NCBI GenBank assembly: GCA_025617375.2
Contig: JAMYGW020000008.1
Coordinates: 992,001-1,056,000 of the forward strand
DNA from: Acarospora socialis
Lineage: Eukaryota > Ascomycota > Lecanoromycetes > Acarosporales > Acarosporaceae
Reading direction: 5' to 3'
Length of the DNA stretch: 64,000 nucleotides
Shown: piece after piece, positions 45,962-58,008 of the stretch
Layout: each line of letters begins with the position of its first letter
Position numbering within the stretch: position 1 is the stretch's first letter
Made by a program: the position numbers and the translations under genes
Notes under the pieces: generated by a model
The model's database searches: none
What the model saw: only the letters and a program-made list of their open reading frames with translations
What the model was told of the DNA's origin: nothing

Positions 45962-46748
45962 TTTCCGCAGGTCAAAGTTATGTCAAGTAAGGCGAGGTAG
46001 GCAGTACATTCATGTTACTTCTCATATTAATCACGTTGTCTTAATCATCACACCGAATTTTCTAGTGTTTCTTGAAAGCCGTAGTGTTTGATAGAACTGT
46101 GAATACTCGATTCCTACAGGTATATCATGAACCTACATTACGACTTATACAGACATTTGGTAAGAGAGATCCATTGTGCGGCGAGCAGCGCTACAAAGTC
46201 CAGTTCGGACCTGGAGAGCTGATAGGGCAACGCTTGTGCTACTGGGACGATTACAATGCTGATAGCTGATACTGTCCGCCATTATTTCAATGTGATTTGA
46301 TCTGCCCGACCTGCCCGATCTGCTCGATCTGCAACAGCATTCATTCTTGTTATTAGCTTCTGCGAATACCTTATTTCCACGTCAGATCAGTCCGTCGCAG
46401 GCCTATACGGTATGCCTTTCTCGGAATCTGGCGGATGCAAAGTGAGGGGCTGCCCCGCACTACTGATCCAACAATTTCTTATCACATGAAAATATATAAG
46501 CCAGCCCCCCGCTCCCACCCTCACTCCTACTCTCAGCAATCATACCTGTCGTTCATCTCCTTCATAAATTGAACACACTGTAACTGTAATAACCCCCGTT
46601 TCAGTTAATTGGTTGTCTGCTGACATTGACCAGGTTATATCACCTTCTAAGTCATTCTTTGAGTACAGCTCACCGATGAGGGAGATCATGGTCTCTGATC
46701 GTCTGGAACCATCCTACAATGGTCGAGGTATTTCAGAATAAATCTGAT
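45962..46748. promoter_or_regulatory. RTG2 / THI4 divergent upstream region
   Basis: About 0.8 kb between RTG2 and the THI4 riboswitch. It should contain both promoters and the 5' part of the THI4 leader. An imperfect 9-bp repeat (GATCTGCCC-like, four copies) lies at 46299-46334. Confidence 0.45.
46299..46334. repeat. Imperfect 9-bp tandem repeat (GATCTGCCC)
   Basis: Four adjoining copies: GATCTGCCC, GACCTGCCC, GATCTGCTC, GATCTGCAA. No role assigned. Confidence 0.7.
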
Positions 46749-46903
46749 GCATGAACCGGTGTTCGTTCCCCAGCCTTCATCAACTACCCATCCACCATTA
46801 TCACTTTGTGAATATGAGATGGCGTAGGATGGAGTAACTGGGGTTCGTTCTGAAATCATACGGTCAAAACTTGATCTGGATAATACCAGCGAAAGGATCA
46901 TGC
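46749..46903 (+). promoter_or_regulatory. TPP riboswitch aptamer in the THI4 5' leader
   Basis: The 3' half, CTTGATCTGGATAATACCAG followed by CGAAAGGATCATGC, closely matches the thiamin pyrophosphate aptamer. By hand folding: P1 GCATGA (46749-46754) with TCATGC (46898-46903); P2 ACCG (46755-46758) with CGGT (46861-46864); extended P3 including CCCCAG (46768-46773) with CTGGGG (46838-46843); P4 CTT with AAG; P5 CTGG (46876-46879) with CCAG (46886-46889). The P2-P3 junction reads CTGAAA (46850-46855) where the usual sequence is CTGAGA. Fungal TPP aptamers lie in leader introns and control splicing. Here a branch-like CTGAC (46935-46939) and an acceptor CAG (46946-46948) sit between the aptamer and the THI4 ATG. 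The donor was not fixed. Confidence 0.92.
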
Positions 46904-46952
46904 TTTTCTTCCTTTCCCAATTACTCGAGCATTCCTGACCGATGCCAGATAA

Positions 46953-47992
<1,040 letters not shown>

Positions 47993-56915: not shown

Positions 56916-58008
56916 ATGGCTTCCATGACGCCCTGGCGGAGAGATTCCCTCTCGTCAGTGCCCGCCACCTTTTCTAGCTGGAATAGTTGTATGGCCAAAG
57001 ACTACTGCAAGTAAGTCCGCTCCGTCTATTTAATCCATTCCAAAGCAATAGCTGATAAATACAATTAGATGGCCCGCAATAATCGGCATCATCGTCGGCG
57101 CCCTAATCCTCCTCTCCCTCCTCTGGTGCGCAATCCGCTGTCTCTGCTGCGGCATGACCTGCTGCTGCTCGTGCCTGTCCTGCTGCGACTGCTGCTGTCC
57201 CTCCGGCCGCCGCGGACACGGCTCCCATTCTGGCCACCGTGACCAGCCCGCCGCCTTCCCACCGGCCTCTTATCACGGCTACCACCCCGCGCCCCCTCCG
57301 CCAAGCTACGAGCCCCCTAAATTCGCGCAATTCGACGTCAGCAAGCGCGGGCACGGGCCCGCCAACGACGACGACGCCCTGCCCCCCATGCCGAGCTGGG
57401 AGACGGCGAGTTCGCGCAAGGTGCCAGACCATCGACGCGGCGGGGAAGAGGGGCTGGAGATGGGCCGGCTGGATCCGGTGGCCGCGCAGCACGCGCCGAT
57501 GCTGGCCAACGCCGCGCCGCCGCCACGGACGGGCTATGCGGAGGCGGACTCGAGCCCCGTGCCGCATTCGCCGTATCAGTATCAACATCAACAGCAAGCT
57601 GGATTTCAAGGCGGCGATCTGGGGTCGCCGTACGGGCGCCAGCAGAGTCCAACTGCGTATGGCGGGTACGCGAGCTCGCCACCGCCTCAGGGAGGAGGGA
57701 GTGCTGGGTACGAGAGCCATCAGACATATGGGAGTCCGACGCACCCGCAAGAACTCGGGGCGTATGGAAGAGGGGGAGGCGACAGGTACGGGTACGAGCA
57801 GCAGCAGGCGTACTCGGCGTACTCGGCGTACTCGGCGTACGCGCCGTCGACGAGCACGCGCTACGAGCCGACGATCAATTATCAGCAACAGACTGGTGTC
57901 GTGCAGAGTGCGAGGTCACCGCCGCCACAGCAGCAGCAGCACGGTTTCGTGACGAGCGTTCCGCCCATTGGGAGGAAGCCGGTGCAGGGCTCTTGGAGGG
58001 ATACGTGA
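56916..58008 (+). CDS. Fibroin-3-like single-pass membrane protein, Cys-rich
   Basis: Exons 56916..57010 and 57069..58008 (58-nt intron) encode 344 residues. The short N-terminus ends SWNSCMAKDYCK and leads into one membrane segment (WPAIIGIIVGALILLSLLWC). A cluster of about fifteen cysteines follows (CAIRCLCCGMTCCCSCLSCCDCCCP), a candidate for palmitoylation. The long tail is rich in Pro, Gly, Tyr, Gln and Ser. It includes PPPPSYEPP (a PPxY motif that WW-domain ligases bind) and a tandem YSAYSAYSAYAP. Ascomycete homologues are annotated as fibroin-3-related; their function is not established. It resembles its upstream neighbour in layout, not in sequence. Confidence 0.8.

Follow-up and report, generated by a model that had tools for sequence, protein, structure and literature searches.

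Identity and layout of the THI4 leader aptamer

The DNA stretch analysed here (64,000 nucleotides, referred to as the window) carries, upstream of the thiazole synthase gene THI4, an element that resembles a thiamin pyrophosphate (TPP) aptamer and has CTGAAA where the family has CTGAGA. This raises the question whether the element still belongs to a functioning riboswitch and what the changed base does. As set out below, the sequence points most likely to a TPP riboswitch that works despite its purine swap, which is tolerated and perhaps weakens it.

A comparison with the Rfam TPP model had been proposed in the first-pass annotation, and a covariance search of 601 bases gave a match to family RF00059 at 46827–46915 (40.4 bits, E = 1.8e-6). 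In a search across the whole genome (31.1 Mb in 38 contigs) the same aptamer had an E value of 2.2e-5. Its score lies below the RF00059 gathering score of 54.3, and the window had no RF00059 match when the gathering threshold was applied. Because the P3 arm is long (~90 bases), the Rfam match begins inside P3 and misses the 5' strands of P1, P2 and lower P3; the span of 46749–46903 given by the first-pass annotation, which includes these strands, is thus the better one. The following features were assigned:

46749–46754, + strand: P1 5' strand GCATGA, located by position, pairing by eye with TCATGC at 46898–46903
46756–46758, + strand: P2 5' strand CCG, pairing by eye with CGG at 46861–46863; the G19 equivalent is next, at 46759
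46761–46850, + strand: long P3 arm, from sequence; U-U mismatches border the C-G and G-C pairs of its lower part
46761–46773 with 46838–46850, + strand: lower P3 strands, located by position and paired by eye
46850–46859, + strand: J3-2 pyrimidine pocket CTGAAATCAT, from sequence and alignment; 46850 doubles as the final base of P3, and 46854 is A in place of G42
46860–46863, + strand: A47 equivalent (46860) and P2 3' strand CGG (46861–46863), mapped by eye
46864–46869, + strand: J2-4, located by position
46870–46895, + strand: P4, P5 and L5 CTTGATCTGGATAATACCAGCGAAAG including the GCG pyrophosphate site, from the Rfam alignment and the alignment of sister aptamers
46898–46903, + strand: P1 3' strand TCATGC, located by position
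46965–47992, + strand: THI4 thiazole synthase (323 aa), from gene model and translation, with a coding intron at 47296–47351

Helices P1, P2, P3, P4 and P5 occur in the order of RF00059, and the correct pairing of P1, P2, P4 and P5 described earlier was borne out, with all strands located, P1 and P2 paired by eye and P4 and P5 aligned to Rfam. The GCG pyrophosphate site and the L5 motif UAAU are present (CTTGATCTGGATAATACCAGCG), and the element lies before a thiamine gene, as is characteristic of RF00059. With the family the aptamer shares P1–P5, five of the six CUGAGA bases and the GCG site, and it differs in its J3-2 sequence CUGAAA and in scoring under the gathering threshold. We thus assign it, by sequence, to the TPP riboswitch family, from whose near-universal motif it departs at a single base, and identify 46749–46903 as the riboswitch aptamer located in the 5' leader of THI4, which is intact and present in a single copy. 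The THI4 product matches the Pfam family Thi4 with 386.2 bits, and the two THI4 exon pieces were the only matches in the genome above the PF01946 cut-off (four others were below it). The best PDB match of the product is 3jsk, CyPBP37 (E = 3e-144), which we take to be a Neurospora protein. Two tandem repeats with a 9-base unit and 3.8 copies each lie at 46299–46332, upstream of THI4, and at 57807–57840.

Related aptamers in the same genome

The RF00059 search of the genome yielded three aptamers including that of THI4, and a fourth was found in the leader of NMT1, which was located via PF09084:

L027:1619–1788, + strand: NMT1 leader aptamer, RF00059, CTGAGA
L001:1514–1656, − strand: L001 aptamer, RF00059, CTGAGA
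L002:1501–1598, + strand: L002 aptamer, RF00059, CTGAGA

The L001 aptamer precedes a gene of the cytosine/purine permease family (24.0 bits, the cut-off being 23.5), and no Pfam family was found for 281 residues encoded behind the L002 aptamer. The three sister aptamers scored 44.5, 40.5 and 33.1 bits (the last being that of NMT1), all below 54.3, so that all four fungal aptamers found here escape the default threshold of Rfam.

CTGAGA is present in all three sister aptamers, and A occurs in THI4 only, i.e. in one of the four aptamers found. When the THI4, L001 and NMT1 aptamers were aligned, the changed column read A, G and G, respectively, and the P4–P5 strands were nearly identical. The first-pass annotation had remarked on two further features of the THI4 aptamer. 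Its paired change in P4 (CTT/AAG) is present, and it also occurs in the aligned L001 and NMT1 aptamers. The lower P3, called odd for the U-U mismatches around its CG/GC pairs, is real but common to L001 and NMT1 by eye: in both, a first G-C pair of P3 is followed by two pyrimidine-pyrimidine mismatches, and the lower P3 module of THI4 is the same in L001 and similar in NMT1. As both features recur in these two aptamers they are not peculiar to THI4, and we dropped them as such. The A at 46854 is, as judged from these comparisons, the sole unusual point of the THI4 aptamer.

This A rests on a single genome copy, and an error of sequencing or assembly, with G as the true base, was considered. 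We regard such an error as highly improbable, because the assembly of 31.1 Mb in 38 contigs suggests good quality, the surrounding sequence and the THI4 gene are intact, and a tandem repeat scan showed no array at the site.

A candidate splicing platform in the THI4 leader

According to the available part of a survey of fungal TPP riboswitches (PMC5882874), riboswitch control of THI4 and NMT1 is mainly a trait of Ascomycota, and in Type I switches a uORF lies between two donors of a leader intron whose AG is located past the aptamer. The ascomycete bias of such control and the 3jsk match point to a filamentous ascomycete as the probable source of the DNA. The THI4 leader contains the corresponding elements:

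46676–46727, + strand: uORF part that would be kept upon use of S2, from translation; a second in-frame ATG is at 46688
46721–46727, + strand: GGTCGAG, complement (with G-U) of the P4 strand CTTGATC, directly 5' of S2
46728–46733, + strand: candidate alternative 5' splice site S2, GTATTT, from sequence
46946–46948, + strand: candidate 3' splice site CAG of the leader intron, from sequence

For the upstream donor S1, several candidates exist in the leader. With the Type I switches of THI4 and NMT1, as outlined in the same part of that survey after the N. crassa NMT1 switch (PMC5882874), the locus shares the 5'-leader position and the long P3, as well as a candidate alternative donor, a uORF, a downstream AG and a P4 complement by the proximal donor; it differs by the A at the G42 position, and its splicing is predicted from sequence.

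The P4-complementary heptamer is located at −7 to −1 of the donor in all three leaders compared (THI4, L001 and NMT1). In each leader, no second one occurs between J3-2 and a point 200 bases upstream of the donor, the stretch that was scanned. Among the 515 AG/GT sites on both strands of the window, a P4 complement was found at one, S2 itself, and at none of the other 514. Joining S2 to the AG at 46948 (sites picked by eye) gives a uORF of 36 codons that overlaps the THI4 ATG out of frame, and such an out-of-frame overlap with the main start results in all three leaders when the proximal donor is joined to the candidate AG.

Pairing energies gave a less uniform picture. In THI4, the 149 bases preceding P1 form a duplex with P4–P5 that 10 of 500 mononucleotide shuffles equalled. 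When the donor region (−12 to +25) was paired with P4–P5, 71, 32 and 358 of 1000 shuffles were as good for THI4, L001 and NMT1, respectively, so that the energies at the donor are not clearly above shuffles in THI4 and NMT1 and are better in L001. When the whole aptamer was considered, the donor paired best with J3-2/P2' in THI4, with P4–P5 in L001 and with the 5' side of P3 in NMT1, and none of these pairings stood out strongly from shuffles (27, 46 and 31 of 300 as good, respectively). Since these energies are weaker than the motif and the best partner varies, P4 is a candidate for the strand that masks S2 in THI4.

Taken with the layout of the leader, these data suggest that the element is quite probably a standard fungal leader-splicing TPP riboswitch that controls THI4 and in which G has naturally changed to A at the G42 position. 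The sequence itself shows an aptamer, a candidate donor, the complementarity of P4 and the donor flank, and a uORF; from these we infer the splicing, the binding of TPP and the effect of the A as follows. At low TPP the P4 strand would pair with the bases beside S2 and hide this donor; the upstream donor would then be used and the intron containing the uORF removed. With TPP bound, P4 would be taken into the aptamer and S2 used, and the uORF kept in this way would overlap the THI4 start out of frame and thereby lower THI4. The A would stack on the pyrimidine of TPP as G does, and TPP would still be bound, perhaps less tightly.

A role of the A outside the pocket was also considered, namely that it serves J3-2 in forming an anti-aptamer helix with the S2 flank and tunes the switch by this route. 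Positions 46730–46738 and 46848–46856 are perfectly complementary over nine bases and can form nine Watson-Crick pairs, which have probabilities between 0.24 and 0.43 in the leader ensemble. Across the THI4 aptamer, the donor pairs best with J3-2/P2', and the energy of donor and J3-2 was reached by only 8 of 1000 mononucleotide shuffles. This initially promising signal lost its support when 27 of 300 dinucleotide shuffles equalled it, taking the best site over the whole aptamer, and no such signal was present in two sister leaders (480 and 594 of 1000 shuffles). Moreover, the ten-pair core has an energy of −9.1 with A-U and −9.2 with G-U, so that the A itself adds nothing to the helix. We therefore dropped the A as a strengthener of this helix and hold a service of this kind to be extremely unlikely. 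A local hairpin that TCAGA-ATAAA-TCTGA at 46733–46747, just downstream of S2, can form (pair probabilities 0.47 to 0.56 in the leader ensemble) would compete with the pairing of J3-2 and the S2 flank.

The substituted base in the pyrimidine pocket

Re-reading the sequence upheld the earlier observation of an A for G in the pyrimidine-pocket loop, with CTGAAA at 46850–46855 and A at 46854 where the family has G. We take these six bases to correspond to C38-U39-G40-A41-G42-A43 of E. coli thiM (mapping by eye), which places 46854 at the G42 position. The strict CUGAGA pocket is thus absent from the THI4 aptamer, which has five of its six bases, and the wider UGNRA triloop consensus is satisfied, UGAAA fitting it as well as UGAGA does. 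UGAGA of TPP aptamers fits a UGNRA lonepair triloop into which the pyrimidine of the ligand intercalates, as stated in an excerpt of PMC2258182, and the available portion of a review describes the aminopyrimidine of TPP as sandwiched between G42 and A43 (PMC7824784). The E. coli structure has G42 as a member of a G19-G42-A47 triple (PMC3764141, in the section available). The equivalents of G19 and A47 are kept in the THI4 aptamer at 46759 and 46860 (mapping by eye).

By our own mapping, G33 and A34 of the Aspergillus oryzae aptamer are presumably the counterparts of G42 and A43 of E. coli thiM. In the accessible part of a simulation study of the A. oryzae aptamer, G33 and A34 contribute considerably to the computed binding energy of TPP (PMC8786325), so that a modest loss of affinity caused by the A is possible. 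Some affinity loss is therefore plausible, which does not imply a loss of binding. The weight of these two bases would also suit a selected role of the A, in which, owing to a lowered affinity, more TPP is needed to shut off THI4 than to shut off NMT1 and the transporter, and the cell responds in a tuned, staggered manner. That the A occurs in the THI4 copy only, among the four aptamers found, is in line with such tuning; selection and drift, however, look alike from one genome, and we consider this reading unlikely. It is likewise doubtful that the purine swap would set the TPP threshold of THI4 apart from those of the other switches in the same cell and give an ordered shut-off of the vitamin B1 genes.

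Our literature searches found no link of CUGAAA with a TPP riboswitch, and a search made for mutational scans of the TPP riboswitch had no paper with the term TPP riboswitch among the matches listed.

Frequency of the substitution in bacterial aptamers

A census of the J3-2 base in bacterial genomes found G at 144 of 145 distinct sites, A at one (in genome G226), and C or T at none. The census pattern fixes the place of J3-2 and, besides ACCC and the P4–P5 strand, demands all five remaining bases of CTGANA; it says nothing on aptamers that depart from it at these elements. The first phylum sampled (395 genomes) yielded 21 sites, one order within it (120 genomes) 52 sites, five of them shared with the phylum set, the second phylum (247 genomes) 70 sites and the third (249 genomes) eight. 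Two draws of nearly the same genomes gave the same sites, and one of them was counted. Seed genomes picked for their A (G003 and G019) were excluded from the 145, and one that was drawn in by a chance CTGAAA elsewhere (G001) was counted with its G; in 25 genomes of the order of G019, no site beyond the seed itself was detected. Two apparent CTGATA sites (T) were rejected and counted as G, as they lie in the P3a arm beside a canonical CTGAGA. A at this position is thus rare, and purines alone occur in the census sample.

In a separate scan of genome contigs for CTGAAA, we read two of 20 matches (L006 and L022) as true J3-2 variants and the other 18 as CTGAAA located elsewhere with a canonical CTGAGA present, a reading accompanied by alignments for only nine of the aptamers. 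All three true bacterial A variants examined (L006, L022 and L092) lie before thiamine genes, which we take to be thiG, thiM-thiE and thiC, respectively (named from the translations). They share the base change and the association with thiamine genes with the THI4 aptamer and, unlike it, have a short P3 and, by eye, a terminator-like hairpin followed by a T run downstream.

The near-invariance of G (144 of 145 bacterial sites and three of the four aptamers here) suggests that the A probably costs something. It also accords with an aptamer that is losing its function in this lineage, the A being the first step of decay. Such decay is very unlikely given that helices P1, P2, P4 and P5 are all intact, as are the remaining J3-2 bases, the GCG site, the P4 complement beside S2 and the uORF. 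The first-pass annotation had left it at an altered affinity or specificity on the one hand and tolerance of the A on the other. A tolerated A is favoured, because the switch is otherwise intact, the sequence fits UGNRA and bacterial A variants occur before thiamine genes; a drop in affinity stays possible, and a change of ligand specificity through the A is without support.

Matches in viral contigs did not add to these variants: none of the 11 loci (one CTGAGA and ten CTGAHA) reached the Rfam gathering threshold or looked TPP-like by eye, the exact fungal-type aptamer pattern had no match, and a scan with the exon-2 part of THI4 found no relative. Six forms of the P4–P5 sequence were not found by literature search.

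Implications for motif-based searches

Two publications, in the parts available, describe CUGAGA as universally conserved and as a key by which new TPP riboswitches have been searched for (PMC9544697, PMC4260697). The A variant before THI4 and its rare bacterial parallels suggest that a strict CUGAGA search misses some real switches. Since the three bacterial A variants would likewise be lost under a strict rule, we treat the motif as near-universal and not as defining. The THI4 variant also offers a natural test of the importance of the stacking base. A trap for pattern censuses was seen at two bacterial loci (L115 and L116), where a CTGATA in the P3a arm is spaced like J3-2 and can be mistaken for a changed one.
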